Source: Candidatus Poseidoniales archaeon
GTDB taxonomy: Archaea; Thermoplasmatota; Poseidoniia; Poseidoniales; Thalassarchaeaceae
DNA length: 52,210 nucleotides
Direction: 5' to 3'
Assembly: GCA_012959435.1 (NCBI GenBank)
Contig: DUDF01000196.1
Span: 1-52,210, forward strand
Made by a program: the position numbers and the translations under genes. This document shows, one piece after another, positions 24,051 through 38,161 of the stretch. Position 1 is the first letter of the stretch. Each line of letters begins with the position of its first letter. The notes under the pieces are model-generated. The model had not been told where the DNA came from. It did no database searches and worked only from the letters and a program-made list of their open reading frames with translations.

Positions 24051-25295
24051 ATGGTATCTGACGCCGACGCAATTTCGCCTACAGATGATGACCAACCTTT
24101 GCATAAGGTCGGGACAATAGCAGAAAGGACTCTTACAAACTTAGAAGACAAGTTTGAAGAATTACGACAACAGACTCAACAATTATTATCAGATAGAATA
24201 GATTTAGAAAACCGTGTGGCAAAACAAAAATCAAAAATTGGTCGATTAAGTGAAGAAGTACGTCTAATGCGTATGCCACCACATGTAATTGGAAATATCC
24301 AAGATATTCTAGACAAAGAACGGGCAGTTGTACGGTCAAGTAACGGTACAGTATTCCTAGTCACATATAATCAAGGAATTGATGCGGACCTCTTGAAACC
24401 GGGTGCAAGAGTGGCTTTGAACCAAGACACACTATCAATAATTGATGTGTTGAATGATGCTTGGGACCCACTAGTAATGGGGGCTGAAATGATTGAAAAA
24501 CCCGAAACATCTTTTTCCGACCTAGGTGGTTTAGAAGAACAAATCTCCCTCATCAAAGAATCAATTGAATTGCCACTGACAAACCCTGAAGCTTTCACTA
24601 GATTTGGCATTGATCCACCTGGCGGGGTTATCCTAGTTGGGCCACCTGGTTGTGGTAAAACAATGCTTGCAAAGGCAGTTGCAAATAGTACTGAATGCAC
24701 CTTTATTCGATTAGTTGCTAGTGAATTGGCCCAAAAATATATTGGAGAGGGCGGAAGAATGGTTAGAGAATTATTTGACCTTGCAAGAGAACGCTCTCCA
24801 TCAATCGTGTTCATAGATGAAATAGATGCGATTGGGGCAAAACGTCTGGATTCAGCCACTAGTGGAGATAGAGAAGTACAAAGAACACTCATGCAACTGC
24901 TCGCTGAATTGGATGGGTTTGACTCGTTAGCAGATGTAAAACTAATTGCTGCAACAAATAGACCCGATATACTTGATGAAGCACTTCTTCGTCCAGGTAG
25001 ATTTGATAGAATAATAGAGATCCCATTACCAAAAGAAGAAGCTAGATTAGCAATTTTGAAAATCCACATGAAAGATATGCCGATTACCAAAGGTGTTAGC
25101 ATCAACAATATGGTATCATCTACTGAAGGATTATCAGGTGCTGAATTAAAGGCCCTAGTTGTGGAAGCAGGTATGTGTGCTATTCGTCAAAATAAAAACA
25201 AAACCACCAAATCAGATTTCGCTTCAGCCTTAGAAACGATTCTAAAGAAACGATCAGAAAATAAGGGTGGAGCACCTGACTCTTTGTGGTCCTGA
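24051..25295 (+). CDS. pan: Proteasome-activating nucleotidase (PAN), AAA+ ATPase
   Basis: Hexameric ATPase that unfolds proteins and feeds them to the 20S proteasome. Residues about 25-75 form the N-terminal coiled coil (LEDKFEELRQQTQQLLSDR). An OB domain follows (about 85-135: VRSSNGTVFLV). The AAA module has Walker A GPPGCGKT (197-204), pore loop KYIGEG, Walker B FIDEID (254-259) and arginine finger region LLRPGRFDR. 414 residues is usual. The C-terminus is DSLWS; the canonical HbYX (hydrophobic-Tyr-any) that opens the proteasome gate is here Leu-Trp-Ser. No proteasome genes lie in the window. Confidence 0.95.
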   Translation: MVSDADAISPTDDDQPLHKVGTIAERTLTNLEDKFEELRQQTQQLLSDRIDLENRVAKQKSKIGRLSEEVRLMRMPPHVIGNIQDILDKERAVVRSSNGTVFLVTYNQGIDADLLKPGARVALNQDTLSIIDVLNDAWDPLVMGAEMIEKPETSFSDLGGLEEQISLIKESIELPLTNPEAFTRFGIDPPGGVILVGPPGCGKTMLAKAVANSTECTFIRLVASELAQKYIGEGGRMVRELFDLARERSPSIVFIDEIDAIGAKRLDSATSGDREVQRTLMQLLAELDGFDSLADVKLIAATNRPDILDEALLRPGRFDRIIEIPLPKEEARLAILKIHMKDMPITKGVSINNMVSSTEGLSGAELKALVVEAGMCAIRQNKNKTTKSDFASALETILKKRSENKGGAPDSLWS

Positions 25296-25336
25296 TTGCG
25301 AAATTGTATTCACCCCTCTACTCTGGAGTAATTAAC

Positions 25337-26362
25337 ATGGAAGACCAATTAGTTGAGTGTGTACCAAATTTTTCAGAAGGAAAAGACAAAAAAATAATTG
25401 ATGCTATTACATCAGCGATGCTAACAGTCAATGATGTACGATTATTGGACGTTGATATGGGTGCAGATTTCAATCGAACTGTAGTTACAATTGTTGGCCC
25501 ACCAAAATCTGTAGTAGAATCGGCACTTAGAGGAACTGAAGTTGCACTAGAATCTATAGACATGAGGGTGCACGCTGGAGAACACGCACGTATGGGGGCA
25601 ATTGATGTTGTGCCATTTATCCCTGTAAGTAACATTTCTATGGATGAATGTATTGGTCTTGCAGAGAAATACGGGGCAGAAGCAGCTAAACGATTTAATT
25701 TATCAGTTTACCTTTATGCAAAGGCTGCTAGGAGGGATGATCGGATTAATCTCCCGGATATTCGACGAGGAGAGTATGAATCATTTGAGGAAAAATTAGG
25801 TGATTCAAATTGGACACCCGATTATGGCCCTTCTAAATTCAATTCAAAAAGCGGAGTGACTGCTACTGGTGCGCGAACAATTCTTATAGCATACAATGTC
25901 AATTTAGATACCAATAATAAAAGTATAACAAACAAAATTGCTGGGAGATTACGTTCTAGTGGAATCCTAAAAAAAGACACACAGGGAGAGAAAATAATTG
26001 GTGAAGACGGGAAAGCAGAACGAATACCTGGGCGTTTTGAATCTTTACAAGGGGCTGGTTGGATGTACGATGATACTACAGCTCAAGTCTCAATGAACTT
26101 ACTAGATTACACAATTACTGGTCTGCATGATGTAACAGATGCGATACGAGAATTAGCATCTGAAACTGATAATTGCACCACTGCTGGGGAATTAGTTGGA
26201 CTAGTACCATTACAAGCAATCTTGGATTCAGGACGCCATTATTTGGGGCGCGATGATGAGGAAGCAATACTCATTCAAAATGCAGTAGAAGGATTACAAC
26301 TTGATCAATTAGGAGATTTCATAATTGAACAACGTATCATTGAGTACGCGGCGGGTGTTTAG
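25337..26362 (+). CDS. ftcD: Glutamate formimidoyltransferase
   Basis: Moves the formimino group of N-formimino-L-glutamate to tetrahydrofolate, releasing glutamate: the fifth step of the hut route used here. 341 residues, both the N and C subdomains present. Visible blocks: ECVPNFSEGKD at the start, DVDMGADFNRTVVT, the MRVHAGEHARMGAIDVVPF segment with the catalytic His, and LYAKAARR. The single-domain form is followed at once by a separate cyclodeaminase (fchA), whereas vertebrates fuse the two. ATG 25337 is chosen because the upstream open frame overlaps pan. Probably co-transcribed with fchA. Confidence 0.95.
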   Translation: MEDQLVECVPNFSEGKDKKIIDAITSAMLTVNDVRLLDVDMGADFNRTVVTIVGPPKSVVESALRGTEVALESIDMRVHAGEHARMGAIDVVPFIPVSNISMDECIGLAEKYGAEAAKRFNLSVYLYAKAARRDDRINLPDIRRGEYESFEEKLGDSNWTPDYGPSKFNSKSGVTATGARTILIAYNVNLDTNNKSITNKIAGRLRSSGILKKDTQGEKIIGEDGKAERIPGRFESLQGAGWMYDDTTAQVSMNLLDYTITGLHDVTDAIRELASETDNCTTAGELVGLVPLQAILDSGRHYLGRDDEEAILIQNAVEGLQLDQLGDFIIEQRIIEYAAGV

Positions 26363-26381
26363 TCTGACTAATTTCGAAGAA

Positions 26382-26996
26382 ATGAGTCTGCAGGATTTCT
26401 CTGATGCATTAGCATCAACTAACCCAACACCGGGAGGTGGTTCGGCTGCTGCAGTAGCACTTTCTCAAGCGGCCGCACTCACAGTGATGGTTTCAGATAT
26501 CACAATTGGACGTGAAAAATGGGAATTAGGATGGAAAGCATCTGAGGCAGCCAAATTAGTTGCAACGCCTTTAGTAAGTGATGGTTTTTCATTGGCTAAT
26601 GATGATACTGATTCTTTTGTTTCGGTAATGGATTCATTCAAACTTCCAAAAGAGACCACAGAACAGAAAGAGGCTCGGAGTTTAGCAATTCAAGATGCAA
26701 CATACCAAGCAGCATTGGTACCACTTCAAACTGCTAAAGATGCACTTCAACTTTTACTTTGTCAAGAAGAATTAGCCGTAACTGGGAACGCAAATGCAGT
26801 TACTGATGTAGGAGTTGCAAGTCTATTGGCCAGTGCTGCATGCAAAGGAGCACTGTTTAATGTACACATTAATGCAATTTCACTCCCTAATGACTTATCT
26901 GAGCCATTATTGGAACAAGTTACTGAAATTAGGAATATATCAAAAGACGCGAGCAGAGCAGTAATGAAGGCAGTATATACAAGACTCGAACAATAA
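26382..26996 (+). CDS. fchA: Formiminotetrahydrofolate cyclodeaminase
   Basis: Releases ammonia from 5-formiminotetrahydrofolate to give 5,10-methenyltetrahydrofolate, the partner reaction of FtcD. 204 all-helical residues. The family's folate-binding loop is at the N-terminus: MSLQDFSDALAS then TPGGGSAAAV. A second block AVTGNANAVTDVGVAS (family pattern with GN.n..SD...A) is also present. I chose ATG 26382; a GTG at 26355 overlaps the ftcD stop and could also be used. Convergent with the aminotransferase, 17 bases away. Confidence 0.93.
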   Translation: MSLQDFSDALASTNPTPGGGSAAAVALSQAAALTVMVSDITIGREKWELGWKASEAAKLVATPLVSDGFSLANDDTDSFVSVMDSFKLPKETTEQKEARSLAIQDATYQAALVPLQTAKDALQLLLCQEELAVTGNANAVTDVGVASLLASAACKGALFNVHINAISLPNDLSEPLLEQVTEIRNISKDASRAVMKAVYTRLEQ

Positions 26997-27013: not shown

Positions 27014-28279
27014 CTAATGAATACTTTGTAAAGCATTTTCTAAGCGAACCATGGCATCTGAAACTTCATCGACTGAAACAGCACCGATAGATATCCTGAA
27101 CCAACCACTTTCATCTTCTAATCCAAAGGCTTGGAAAGGTATGACTGCTATGCCTGCTTCTTTTAGGAGCCACAGACGTATCTCTTCGTTTGTATTTACT
27201 CCTAATGCACTAAACAAGTTAAAGCGGGTAGAAAGGTAAATTCCACCTTGCGGTGGGATAAAATCAACAGGTAAACCAGAATCCCTCATCTGCGTTAAAC
27301 TTGTAAATAAAATTTCCATTCTATCTGAAATGCGAGAGTCGAGGTCTTCAAAATACAACTCTAATTTCTTTGGATCTGAGTAGGTTTCAGCTGCTGCTTG
27401 TTGTATAGGTCTTGCAGGCCAAGAACCCATGTGACCAATTAGAGCAATTACTGGTGCAGCAAGTTTTGGTGGCAGCGCCATCCATCCTAATCTCAATCCA
27501 GTAGCTGTTAGTGATTTGGAAATAGCATCAAGAGTTATTGTGAATTCAAACATATCTGGCCTAACTTGTACGGGGTGGACATGTTCAATCCCTTTCACAG
27601 TCATTGTAGAATAAACTTGGTCATACACCAACATTACCGGTTTCTGCCCGGTTTTTCTTCGCTTGTGGTTTTCTTCTAATACCACATCACAAATAGCACC
27701 TAATTCGTCAGCCGTAAAACAAGTACCAGTTGGATTTAGTGGTGAATTTAAGATTAATACTCTAATCTCTGAAATGCGTTCTTTGACGCCATCAGCAGTA
27801 GGAAGAAACCTACTATCAGAATCCCCTTCTATTGCTATATCTTTAGCTGAATTAAGATGGACATAGTAGTGATTATTCCATGCGGGGACACCATGTGCAA
27901 GCCCTTCACCTGGTTCAAGAAAGAGTTTGAAGGACGCGAACAAAACTGGTCTAGCACCACTACCAACAATGATTCCTTCAGAACCAACATTGAGACCGTA
28001 TTTGTAAATCATCCAATTTGACAAACTTTCTCTAAGTTCGGGAAGTCCTGCTGCTGGTGGGTAATTTGTTTGGTTTTGATGCACCACAGATGCTAATGCT
28101 TCAGTAAAAGAAAGGGGGACTTGAAACTGTTCTGGTGAGAAATCACCGACAGTGAAGGCAGTCACCTGTTTACCTTCATCCTTCATTTTTTTGACTTGGG
28201 TTGCTATTGAAAGAATTCTACTTCGCTCAATCCCATTCGCCAGTTCTGACAGGTACCACTCACCATCTGGCCCCGTCAT
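27014..28279 (-). CDS. PLP-dependent aminotransferase, class I/II
   Basis: 421 residues with the fold-type I pattern: YPPAAGLPELRESL, LNSPLNPTGTCF (substrate/PLP Asn182), D220 and Y223 (YDQVYS), Schiff-base Lys255 in ISKSLTATGLRLGW, and a C-terminal RISIGA arginine. This places it with aspartate/aromatic aminotransferases; the amino acid used cannot be read from the sequence. It lies inside the histidine pathway genes and is divergent from hutU, so it could act on histidine-derived or glutamate-linked amino groups, but that is inference from position only. Confidence 0.9.
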   Translation of the reverse strand: MTGPDGEWYLSELANGIERSRILSIATQVKKMKDEGKQVTAFTVGDFSPEQFQVPLSFTEALASVVHQNQTNYPPAAGLPELRESLSNWMIYKYGLNVGSEGIIVGSGARPVLFASFKLFLEPGEGLAHGVPAWNNHYYVHLNSAKDIAIEGDSDSRFLPTADGVKERISEIRVLILNSPLNPTGTCFTADELGAICDVVLEENHKRRKTGQKPVMLVYDQVYSTMTVKGIEHVHPVQVRPDMFEFTITLDAISKSLTATGLRLGWMALPPKLAAPVIALIGHMGSWPARPIQQAAAETYSDPKKLELYFEDLDSRISDRMEILFTSLTQMRDSGLPVDFIPPQGGIYLSTRFNLFSALGVNTNEEIRLWLLKEAGIAVIPFQAFGLEDESGWFRISIGAVSVDEVSDAMVRLENALQSIH

Positions 28280-28356: not shown

Positions 28357-30381
28357 ATGGGTCAGTGGGATGCGCTTCAGACTAGCATTCTAGAGGGAAT
28401 TCCCGAAACCCTTCCTGAATACCCAGAATTTGATAAAAATGTTGACCATGCGCCTAATCGTAGAGATATTCTAACACCAAAAGAAAAGCAATTAGCGTTG
28501 AAAAATGCATTACGTTACTTCCCTTCATCACAACATGAAGTACTCGCACCCGAATTTGCTAGCGAGTTAGAGACTTATGGCCGTATCTATATGTACAGAT
28601 TTCGACCAAGTCATATCAAAATTAGAGCATATCCGATTTCAGCATATCCAGCAAAGTCTCAACATGCCGCCGCCATTATGTTAATGATACAAAATAATCT
28701 CGATGAACAGGTTGCACAATTTCCTCATGAATTGATTACCTACGGTGGTAATGGCTCTGTTTTTCAAAATTGGGCGCAGTATCGATTGGCAATGAAATAT
28801 TTGTCTCAAATGACAAATTCTCAAACATTAGTTATGTATTCTGGCCACCCTTTGGGATTATTTCCTTCAAGTGAAGAATCTCCAAGAGTTGTCGTAACAA
28901 ATGGAATGGTAATTCCAAATTATTCTTCCCAAGAAAATTATGAGAAATATAACGCTCTTGGAGTTAGTCAATATGGGCAGATGACTGCTGGCTCCTACAT
29001 GTACATTGGTCCTCAAGGTATTGTCCATGGCACAACGATAACTTTACTCAATGCTGGGAGAAAGTATCTCAACCTCACTGGAAATGATGGTATTTCAGGC
29101 AGAACCTATGTCACAAGTGGATTAGGTGGTATGAGTGGCGCTCAGGCCAAAGCAGCGGTTATCGCTGGGGCTTCATGCATCATTGCTGAAATCAATCCCG
29201 CAGCAGCCAATAAACGGCATGAACAAGGGTGGCTTGATGTAGTTGTACAAGATATTGATGTTGCAATTGATAAAATGGTGGAAGCCGCTGCGAATAAACT
29301 AGCAATTAGTATTGGTTATGTGGGCAATATTGTAACCCTATGGGAACGACTTTGTGAAAGAGGAATTAAAGTGGACTTAGGTAGTGACCAAACTTCACTT
29401 CATAATCCATGGCAAGGTGGTTATTATCCAATACAAATCGGTTTTGATGAGGCTAATGTTATGATGGTAGAAGAACCAACAAAATTCAAGCAACTTGTCA
29501 AAGAATCGCTATGTAGGCATACACTAGCAATCAATGAAATGTGTTCTAATGGAATGCGATTCTGGGATTATGGAAATGCATTTTTACTTGAGGCCAGTAA
29601 AGCAGGAGCAGATATTCTAGAGTCAGATGGTTCGTTCAGATACCCATCTTATGTTGAAGATATCATGGGCCCAATGTGTTTTGACTATGGCTTTGGCCCA
29701 TTCAGATGGGTTTGTACCTCTGGAGACTCAAAAGACCTAAATGAAAGTGATTTAATTGCTAAGAATATTCTTTCGGATATGGCTAAAAATAGCCCTGATG
29801 ACATACAGCAACAAATGTTGGATAATGTAAAATGGATTAAAGAAGCAGATGCGAATAAAATGGTTGTAGGTTCTCAAGCTAGAATCCTATATGCCGATGA
29901 ACAAGGAAGAAGGAGGATAGCAGAAGCATTCAACGATGCTATTTCAACCGGACTGATATCAGCACCTATTGTCCTAGGGCGTGATCATCATGATGTCTCT
30001 GGAACTGATTCACCTTACCGCGAAACCGCGAACATCAAAGATGGGTCTATGTTTAGTGCGGACATGGCCGTACAGAATTTTGTTGGAGACTCATTCAGAG
30101 GAGCGACTTGGGTAAGTTTACACAATGGCGGAGGAGTTGGTTGGGGAGAAGTCATTAACGGTGGATTCGGTCTTGTTCTAGACGGTACAGAACAGGCTTC
30201 AATAAGGTTGAATTCCATGCTTAATTGGGATGTAAATAACGGAATTGCTAGAAGGGCTTGGGCAAGGAACTCTGGTGCATTGACTGCAGCACAAAGGGCT
30301 ATGGCAAGAGACACAACGCTAGATATAACTATCCCAAATATAGCGGATGATGATTTAATTTCTAGATTCTTTATAGATTAA
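28357..30381 (+). CDS. hutU: Urocanate hydratase, long form
   Basis: Adds water to urocanate with NAD+ as an electrophile, giving 4-imidazolone-5-propionate. The core is clear: YGGNGSVFQNWAQY, then GQMTAGSYMYIGPQGIVHG near residue 207, SGLGGMSGAQAKAA, KRHEQGWLD, and the C-terminal LGRDHHDVSGTDSPYRET and HNGGGVGWGEVINGG blocks. 674 residues is about 120 longer than the E. coli/Pseudomonas/Bacillus enzyme (about 550), the size found in a second bacterial clade (for example Bacteroidetes and myxobacteria), which suggests a bacterial origin by transfer. hutH follows 54 bases downstream on the same strand. Confidence 0.96.
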   Translation: MGQWDALQTSILEGIPETLPEYPEFDKNVDHAPNRRDILTPKEKQLALKNALRYFPSSQHEVLAPEFASELETYGRIYMYRFRPSHIKIRAYPISAYPAKSQHAAAIMLMIQNNLDEQVAQFPHELITYGGNGSVFQNWAQYRLAMKYLSQMTNSQTLVMYSGHPLGLFPSSEESPRVVVTNGMVIPNYSSQENYEKYNALGVSQYGQMTAGSYMYIGPQGIVHGTTITLLNAGRKYLNLTGNDGISGRTYVTSGLGGMSGAQAKAAVIAGASCIIAEINPAAANKRHEQGWLDVVVQDIDVAIDKMVEAAANKLAISIGYVGNIVTLWERLCERGIKVDLGSDQTSLHNPWQGGYYPIQIGFDEANVMMVEEPTKFKQLVKESLCRHTLAINEMCSNGMRFWDYGNAFLLEASKAGADILESDGSFRYPSYVEDIMGPMCFDYGFGPFRWVCTSGDSKDLNESDLIAKNILSDMAKNSPDDIQQQMLDNVKWIKEADANKMVVGSQARILYADEQGRRRIAEAFNDAISTGLISAPIVLGRDHHDVSGTDSPYRETANIKDGSMFSADMAVQNFVGDSFRGATWVSLHNGGGVGWGEVINGGFGLVLDGTEQASIRLNSMLNWDVNNGIARRAWARNSGALTAAQRAMARDTTLDITIPNIADDDLISRFFID

Positions 30382-30435: not shown

Positions 30436-31956
30436 ATGGATTTAGTGCTAGATGGTGACCATCTGTCTATTGCAGATGTTGAATCTGTTGCGAGAGGAAA
30501 TGTCAAAGTTTCTGTTAGTGATGATGCCTGGCAAAGAATACATAATTGTAGAAAGATGATTCAGAAGAAAATTGATGCCCATGAAGTAATGTATGGGGTC
30601 ACCACAGGTATTGGAGAATTTAGTGAGGTCGTATTATCACCTGACAAAATAAAATCATTTCAAAAATTCTTAGTTTACTCTCATGCAGCTGGTATTGGAG
30701 AACCAATGCCAATCGAGGTAGTTCGTGGGGCTATGCTAGGGCGCATTAACGTACACTGCCATGGTAATTCAGGCGGCAGGGCTGAAGTAACTCAATTACT
30801 AATTGATATGCTCAATCAAGGGGTCACACCTGTTGTTGCTAGCAAAGGGTCGGTTGGTGCGTGTGGTGATCTATCTCCAATGTCACAAATTGCAATGACT
30901 ATGATGGGTGATGGAGATGCCTTCTATGAAGGGGAAAGAATGGCAGCTACTGAGGCTTTGAAATCTGCAGGTCTAGAGCCCATTACCCTAGAAGCACGAG
31001 ATGGGTTAGCAATAATCAACGGCAGTAACATGCTAACGGCGATGGCGGCATTGACATTATGTGATGCCATTAGGTGGTTGAAATACCACGATATCTCAGC
31101 CGCAATGACTCTTGAAGCCTTGAATGCAAATATGACTCCCTATGACAATCGACTTCACGAATTACGTGGTTTTACAGGTTCAATTGACACTGCTGATAAT
31201 TTACTTCGATTGACTGCTGATTCCGATATTCTTGCATCTGCAGGTAAGAAAGTTCAGGATGCATATTCATTAAGGTCTACACCACAAGTAATTGGTTCAC
31301 TTAAGGATGCGATAAAATATGCCACATCCCAAGTGGAAATTGAATTAAATGGTGTAGGAGATAATCCGGTTTTTCTTGTAGATGAAGAGAGAGTTATCAC
31401 AGGGGCAAATTTCCAAGGCTCTCCTGTTGCCCTCCCTATGGAAATGGTAGGAATAGGACTCTCAATGGGCGCAGTTCTGTCAGAGAGAAGAATGAACCGA
31501 TTAACAAACCCAGCCCTGTCTGGAGGATTACCACCGTTCCTAACTGAACAACCAGGATTACATTCTGGATTAATGGTAGCACAATATACTGCTTGCGCAC
31601 TTGTAGCAGAAACAAGGATTCTCTCCCACCCTGCAGCAAATCAGAGTATTCCTGCTGCTGCTGACCAAGAAGACTTCGTCAGCATGGGCATGACGACCAC
31701 CCAAAAAACAAGACAAATTATGGAAAATTGTTTTGGTGTTTTGGCAATTGAAATGATTGCTTCATCGCAAGCTATCGACATCCGAGGTGGCGAGCCAGGC
31801 AAAGGAACAGGCATTGCCCACAAAATTATTCGTCAAAGTATTGACCATCTAGATGACGATAGGCCCCTCTTCCCTGACCATGATACAATGGTTACAATTC
31901 TTCAATCTGGTTCAATGATAAATGCTGTAGAAGATGAAATTGGAACCATTAATTGA
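30436..31956 (+). CDS. hutH: Histidine ammonia-lyase with Ala-Cys-Gly cofactor triad
   Basis: Removes ammonia from L-histidine to give urocanate. 506 residues, usual length. Family residues: Y53 (VMYGVTTGIG), H83 (YSHAAG), N195 (IINGSN), Y277 and R280 (QDAYSLR), F326 (ANFQG) and the Glu of DQEDFVSMG. The MIO cofactor normally forms from Ala-Ser-Gly in GSVGASGDL; here residues 142-144 are Ala-Cys-Gly (codons GCG TGT GGT at 30859-30867), in the context GSVGACGDLSP. In Pseudomonas putida HAL a Ser143Cys change has been reported to keep activity, so this natural variant could be functional. Substrate assignment rests on the hutU, hutI and ftcD neighbours; other aromatic lyases share the fold. Confidence 0.93.
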   Translation: MDLVLDGDHLSIADVESVARGNVKVSVSDDAWQRIHNCRKMIQKKIDAHEVMYGVTTGIGEFSEVVLSPDKIKSFQKFLVYSHAAGIGEPMPIEVVRGAMLGRINVHCHGNSGGRAEVTQLLIDMLNQGVTPVVASKGSVGACGDLSPMSQIAMTMMGDGDAFYEGERMAATEALKSAGLEPITLEARDGLAIINGSNMLTAMAALTLCDAIRWLKYHDISAAMTLEALNANMTPYDNRLHELRGFTGSIDTADNLLRLTADSDILASAGKKVQDAYSLRSTPQVIGSLKDAIKYATSQVEIELNGVGDNPVFLVDEERVITGANFQGSPVALPMEMVGIGLSMGAVLSERRMNRLTNPALSGGLPPFLTEQPGLHSGLMVAQYTACALVAETRILSHPAANQSIPAAADQEDFVSMGMTTTQKTRQIMENCFGVLAIEMIASSQAIDIRGGEPGKGTGIAHKIIRQSIDHLDDDRPLFPDHDTMVTILQSGSMINAVEDEIGTIN

Positions 31957-36789: not shown

Positions 36790-38097
36790 TCAATATTTGT
36801 GGTTGACCCACCCGCCATTTGACAAAGTCCCGAAAAATGGTTGATCGGAATTAGACCCATACCATCCTTCGATATTATCATCTTGAAGTATGTTTAGAGA
36901 TGCAGGGCCTCCCTCACTAATTGTACCTAACTTACTGTTTCTTCCTTCAAGTAATGAGCATGCGCTGTTTCTTGATGCTGCTACCAGGGCAGCCAATGGT
37001 GGAATACCTGATTGTTCAATAGCAATTTTTGAGATGAATGGTAGTGAAAGACTTGGGCAATTAGGATTAAAGTCAGTAGCTAAGGACCAAGCCCACCCAT
37101 TATCCAAGCATTGTTGGAAAGGAGGCCAATGGTCAAGCCCCAACACATGGGGGGTTGCGGGAAGGAAACCTTGGATTACCCCCGCCTTATGGCACGCATC
37201 TCTTGCATCGTCTGTACTCCATCCAGCGTGGTCCGCGGTTAATGCACCTAATTCTGCAGCAAGTTGTGCCCCTCCGCAATCTGAAAATTCATCAACGTGT
37301 AATCTTATTTCCAATCCTTGGGATTTTGCTTCTTTACAGATATCTTCTGTTTCTTCAATTGTAAACCAGCCATTTTCACAAAATACATCAGCATAGGTTG
37401 CAATACCCTGTTCAATGACTGCTGGTAACTGTTCAGACAATATTTCTTCAACATATTGAGATTGTGTCAATTCCTTAGGAACTGAATGCGCACCTAACCA
37501 AGTTGATGTTGTTTCTATCTGAAAATCATGCCCTGCTTGATTAGACGCAATAAGTAATTTCAATTCATCTTGTGTAGTTAATCCATAACCACTCTTAGTT
37601 TCTAAGAAAGTGGTACCAAAGTTCTCTGCATTTGTTACTCTCTCTCTTGCTGATAACAATAATTCTTGGAGTGGGGCGATTCTAGTCTCTCCAACTGTTT
37701 TGTTTATTCCCCCACCCATTTCCGATATTTGTTGGTAAGTATAACCCTGCTCACGCAAAGCAACTTCACCTGAACGGTCACCTGTCCAAACAAGATGTGA
37801 ATGGCCATCTACTAAACCAGGTATTACGGCTTTACCGGCTAAATCCCATACCTCAACATCACCTGTTTGAACTAGAGATGGAACACTTGAATCTAACTTC
37901 ATTTGATGGAAGTATTCAAGTTGTAATTCTTCAGAAAAACCAATTTTTTCTATTTCCTTATCGTTGGATAAGATAGCCAACCCAGCAGGATGAATGAGTA
38001 GCTCCTCATCGTACATAGTATTGCCAACAAGAGGGCCTTGGACCCCATTAGGAGAGAGGTGGGCAATAGGCCCGACGTTGAGCAACAGGCGCCGCAT
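36790..38097 (-). CDS. hutI: Imidazolonepropionase
   Basis: Amidohydrolase that opens imidazolone-5-propionate to N-formimino-L-glutamate, the step before FtcD. 435 residues. Metal ligands are in PGLVDGHSHLVWTGDR (H99 and H101), with a further His in IRLHVDEFSDCGGAQLA and an Asp in the ATDFNPNCPS block; SGYGLTTQDELKLL is also typical. ATG 38097 (MRRLLLNV) is chosen; a GTG at 38112 would add five residues. It is transcribed opposite to hutH and hutU and 4.8 kb from hutH, divergent from kae1. Confidence 0.95.
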   Translation of the reverse strand: MRRLLLNVGPIAHLSPNGVQGPLVGNTMYDEELLIHPAGLAILSNDKEIEKIGFSEELQLEYFHQMKLDSSVPSLVQTGDVEVWDLAGKAVIPGLVDGHSHLVWTGDRSGEVALREQGYTYQQISEMGGGINKTVGETRIAPLQELLLSARERVTNAENFGTTFLETKSGYGLTTQDELKLLIASNQAGHDFQIETTSTWLGAHSVPKELTQSQYVEEILSEQLPAVIEQGIATYADVFCENGWFTIEETEDICKEAKSQGLEIRLHVDEFSDCGGAQLAAELGALTADHAGWSTDDARDACHKAGVIQGFLPATPHVLGLDHWPPFQQCLDNGWAWSLATDFNPNCPSLSLPFISKIAIEQSGIPPLAALVAASRNSACSLLEGRNSKLGTISEGGPASLNILQDDNIEGWYGSNSDQPFFGTLSNGGWVNHKY

Positions 38098-38161
38098 GGT
38101 TCCCCCGGACACACTACAGGCTTGAAATGATGTGGCCTACCCGCAATGCTTGTTGAGAACT

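Follow-up and report, generated by a model that had tools for sequence, protein, structure and literature searches.

An archaeal HutH with a natural Ala-Cys-Gly triad belongs to a widespread Cys/Ser subfamily of predicted histidine ammonia-lyases

Introduction

The histidine ammonia-lyase (HAL, HutH) of Pseudomonas putida forms its methylidene-imidazolone cofactor (MIO) from the triad Ala142-Ser143-Gly144. During MIO formation the amide of the glycine attacks the carbonyl of the alanine, water is lost, and elimination of the central residue's side chain leaves the exocyclic methylidene. A variant of this enzyme with cysteine in place of the central serine, S143C, was reportedly found by Langer, Lieber and Retey in 1994 to mature to active enzyme. 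Ala-Ser-Gly has been described as strictly conserved (PMC3903478), and variation of the triad has been described at its first residue only (PMC9002059). MIO-forming residues are also the subject of a paper by Brack, Sun, Yi and Bornscheuer (ChemBioChem, 2024), cited in PMC11432326 and PMC12535398. In the open-access literature that we searched, no mention of Ala-Cys-Gly together with an ammonia-lyase was found, and S143C gave no match. Here, we describe a HutH with cysteine at this site, encoded in a stretch of 52,210 nucleotides (referred to in its entirety as the window) from a Poseidoniia-like archaeal metagenome-assembled genome (MAG).

Results

The gene for this HutH lies at 30436..31956 on the forward strand and encodes 506 amino acids; PF00221, PRK09367 and an AlphaFold model identify the product as a HAL-type lyase, here assigned to a Cys143 subfamily. 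The original prediction placed the codons GCG TGT GGT at 30859..30867, and they were found exactly there, on the forward strand and in frame within an intact open reading frame. The encoded Ala142-Cys143-Gly144 sits in SKGSVGACGDLSPM, as had been claimed, and aligns with Ala142-Ser143-Gly144 of P. putida HAL, the MIO-forming site, with identical residue numbers. Alignment also bears out the proposed retention of Y53, H83, N195, Y277, R280, F326 and Glu412 of the DQEDF motif, and shows that Q274 and M380 are retained as well. The window protein therefore has all of the active-site residues expected of a canonical HAL (Y53, H83, N195, Q277, Y280, R283, F329, M382 and E414 in P. putida numbering), together with the Ser-His substrate-switch dyad (in SHAAG) and a histidine-degradation gene context; its triad is Ala-Cys-Gly (ACG) and not the canonical Ala-Ser-Gly (ASG).

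Profile searches gave 557.8 bits against PF00221, the aromatic amino acid lyase superfamily (gathering cut-off 27.3), and 552.6 bits against PRK09367, the NCBIfam HAL subfamily (curated cut-off 524). The score against the TIGR01225 hutH equivalog was 527.1 bits, below the cut-off of 539.15, and the clade proteins tested, including the Ser and Cys members L020 and L043, all scored between 506 and 527 bits. Cys and Ser proteins alike thus fall below this cut-off, which makes the clade sister to the trusted equivalog. The AlphaFold model has a mean pLDDT of 85.9, and its nearest PDB structures are those of P. putida HAL (TM 0.92). However, the triad falls within a stretch modeled at low confidence (residues 139-143), so the model is uninformative on cofactor geometry.

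As the window comes from a draft MAG, a sequencing error or a decaying gene might be invoked to explain the cysteine. Against this, the reading frame is intact, the active site is invariant, and Cys is specified by different codons in independent assemblies. Three genomes of the same genus (G005, G006 and G007) carry Cys, as does a fragmentary copy in a fourth (G001). Cys is likewise present in relatives at 93, 92, 87, 76, 75, 72 and 71% identity, in independent codon contexts such as GCGTGTGGT, GCATGTGGA, GCTTGTGGA and GCATGTGGG, and in all relatives down to 64% identity, with differing synonymous codons. We therefore reject error or pseudogene decay, which is almost certainly wrong as an explanation: the cysteine at the triad of the window HutH is genuine.

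A search for homologues with Cys at this position had been suggested, to see whether they mark a clade. Cys143 does mark one lyase subfamily, whose members are approximately 56-93% identical to the window HutH and which also contains Ser proteins. Most of the 80 nearest relatives among GTDB genomes have Cys, and their records are labeled archaea, Bacteroidota, Chloroflexota, Marinimicrobia, Cloacimonadota, Kapabacteria, Krumholzibacteriia, Elusimicrobia and others. When compared with the window protein, scores drop from approximately 600 to approximately 425 bits with none found in between, a gap that sets the subfamily apart. Among the distinct sequences sampled, the subfamily comprises 91 ACG and 28 ASG proteins, counts that are not prevalence figures because sampling began from an ACG query. 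None of the 75 lyases fetched from outside the subfamily has ACG (74 ASG and one Ser-Ser-Gly).

A survey with a DNA pattern, counted by hand among the matches listed, gave approximately 43 ACG of approximately 149 in the phylum of the window, seven ACG including the center genome in the phylum of a Bacteroidetes MAG (G263), three including the center genome in that of a Chloroflexota genome (G265), and ACG in the center genome only in that of G283. One Chloroflexota pattern match outside the clade (L177) was discarded as a chance match that is not a lyase. How widespread the Cys form is had originally been left open; it extends over archaea and many bacterial phyla. From these sequences, Cys appears to be the standard state in a branch of the lyase family that is widespread among bacteria and archaea, and in which the MIO-forming residue would normally be Cys and sometimes Ser.

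In a tree built with the trait column masked, the subfamily forms one clade with support of 100, and its basal branches are Cys. Within the clade, this tree implies 14 changes between Cys and Ser, of which well-supported branches force eight; the state at the root and the direction of change come from parsimony, with distant Ser lyases as outgroups. Both TCN and AGY codons occur among the Ser members, and each set includes members one base from TGY, which fits repeated change from Cys to Ser. In the clade alignment of 107 rows the central triad residue is Cys in 85 and Ser in 22, whereas A142, G144, Y53, H83, N195, Q277, Y280, R283, F329, M382 and E414 (P. putida numbering) are invariant in all 107. 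An exchange confined to Cys and Ser, with the rest of the active site fixed, would be expected if both residues give the same functional group. Among the columns listed, no residue co-varied significantly with the Cys/Ser state, in a comparison that is underpowered at eight independent pairs. These observations bear on the idea that Cys143 stays a free thiol and that the enzyme works without MIO, for which there may be precedent in MIO-less relatives, reportedly including some ergothioneine lyases. The many Cys/Ser interchanges, with the other active-site residues unchanged and no significant co-varying column among those listed, argue against a free thiol, as does the P. putida S143C variant, which is said to be active, and we regard it as very unlikely.

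The window encodes further enzymes of histidine degradation. On the forward strand are FtcD, a glutamate formimidoyltransferase (25286..26362; TIGR02024, 329.7 bits; PF07837 and PF02971), a formiminotetrahydrofolate cyclodeaminase of the FTCD_C type (26325..26996; PF04961, 165.8 bits) and, directly upstream of HutH, a HutU urocanase of the long, 674-residue type (28357..30381; TIGR01228, 416.6 bits against a cut-off of 375; three urocanase Pfam domains). A class I/II aminotransferase (PF00155) is encoded on the reverse strand in the interval that separates the cyclodeaminase gene from that of HutU (27014-28279), and imidazolonepropionase, HutI, is also encoded on the reverse strand (36790..38112; TIGR01224, 299.0 bits, barely above the cut-off of 298.15). 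Together, FtcD, the cyclodeaminase, HutU, HutH and HutI are predicted to take histidine all the way to glutamate and a one-carbon unit. Urocanases fall into two types by length and TIGR01228 score: one has approximately 550 amino acids and approximately 850-980 bits, and the other, long and divergent, has approximately 680 amino acids and approximately 410-440 bits. The long type is found in the window and in some genomes of Bacteroidota, Cloacimonadota and Deltaproteobacteria.

No second PF00221 protein was found in the source genome, which is 77% complete, so that a second lyase could be missing from it. Nineteen genomes in which the ACG protein is the only PF00221 match were taken from 43 genomes with clade members. 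HutU was detected in all 19 (18 above cut-off), as was HutI (17 above cut-off); in the same searches, 4 of 14 control genomes were above cut-off. One of the 19, G265 (CP070764.1), is a single-contig chromosome of 4.5 Mb, and it is unlikely that a second lyase was overlooked there.

Related Poseidoniia-type archaea retain the hut cluster and have a HutU orthologous to that of the window (62-71% identity). In eight of these loci (L151, L152 and L154-L159) the slot after HutU is occupied by a canonical ASG HutH, approximately 30-36% identical to the window protein, and in L153 by an ACG HutH of 75% identity. In a tree of HutU the ACG-type operons fall on one side, moderately supported, a topology that is compatible with a single displacement of HutH. 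This exchange within one operon slot argues strongly, if circumstantially, that the Cys protein serves as HutH.

At P. putida position 82, most clade members have Asn-His (NHAAG) as opposed to the Ser-His of HAL, although the subclade of the window has Ser-His. In several genomes a second lyase, of the Ser type and approximately 35-42% identical, is located close to the Cys-clade lyase or in tandem with it (L027, L028, L030, L031, L033, L043, L054 and L169); the second lyase of L028 has the triad Ser-Ser-Gly. A gene that reads as histidyl-tRNA synthetase is found just upstream of the clade lyase in 11 Bacteroidota-type loci (L030, L032, L033, L040, L056, L057, L058, L061, L063, L064 and L075), and in places a second lyase or another gene intervenes.

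The prevailing Asn-His dyad and the presence of a canonical ASG HAL alongside in some genomes suggest that some clade members may use another substrate. Extended to the clade as a whole, this would make it a separate kind of lyase with some other histidine-like or aromatic substrate, its proximity to hut genes being partly coincidental, and the sub-threshold TIGR01225 scores would fit as well. Nevertheless, the HAL-specific residues are all conserved, HutU and HutI are detected in all 19 genomes whose sole lyase is the ACG protein, the ACG protein replaces canonical HutH next to orthologous HutU, and the window HutH retains Ser-His. We consider a different substrate for the whole clade distinctly unlikely. 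The case that the protein works like HAL is strong for the window HutH, with its Ser-His dyad, and is weaker for clade members that adjoin a second canonical HAL.

Discussion

The interchange of Cys and Ser, the invariant active site, the sole-lyase genomes with hut genes and the equivalence of operon slot with a Ser HAL together support a working HAL with Cys143. We conclude that the window HutH is very probably a HAL of a Cys/Ser subfamily whose MIO most likely arises from Ala142-Cys143-Gly144; from sequence, we infer MIO formation, loss of H2S and histidine as the substrate. The backbone of the triad would cyclize autocatalytically with loss of water, and Cys143 would then shed its side chain as H2S in place of water, yielding the same methylidene-imidazolone; H2S is the better leaving group. 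The original suggestion, of a natural route from a thiol to this cofactor, is thus supported at the level of sequence, with MIO formation from Cys as the predicted step.

Cys could also be kept for a function of its own, such as easier self-activation through loss of sulfide, or a thiol that holds an inactive pre-MIO form until conditions suit. We think this unlikely, but if true it would explain why Cys is preferred across multiple phyla even though a single mutation gives Ser, which does recur. As a HAL subfamily that prefers Cys, has swapped Cys and Ser many times and is otherwise unchanged in its active site, the clade would offer a set of natural mutants for studying the chemistry by which MIO forms. 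Rules for annotation that require Ser would misjudge proteins of this clade, and marine archaeal hut pathways would seem broken.

Compared with known systems, the window HutH shares its fold (TM 0.92; 36% identity in the structural alignment) and its active-site residues with P. putida HAL (PDB 1B8F), but has Cys in place of Ser at 143 and belongs to a separate subfamily. The canonical archaeal ASG HutH proteins (L152, L154 and L158) share with it the operon slot beside orthologous HutU, but have a Ser triad and are approximately 33-35% identical to it; L152, unlike the window HutH, scores above the TIGR01225 cut-off. The reported P. putida S143C variant has the same Ala-Cys-Gly triad, but is engineered, whereas the window HutH is a natural Cys enzyme. 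Finally, the abstract of Brack et al. reportedly describes clusters of ACG sequences and the characterization of two ACG HALs. If so, ACG lyases are already known, and the additions made here are an archaeal example, the wide taxonomic spread of the clade, its repeated interchange of Cys and Ser, and the operon-slot swap.
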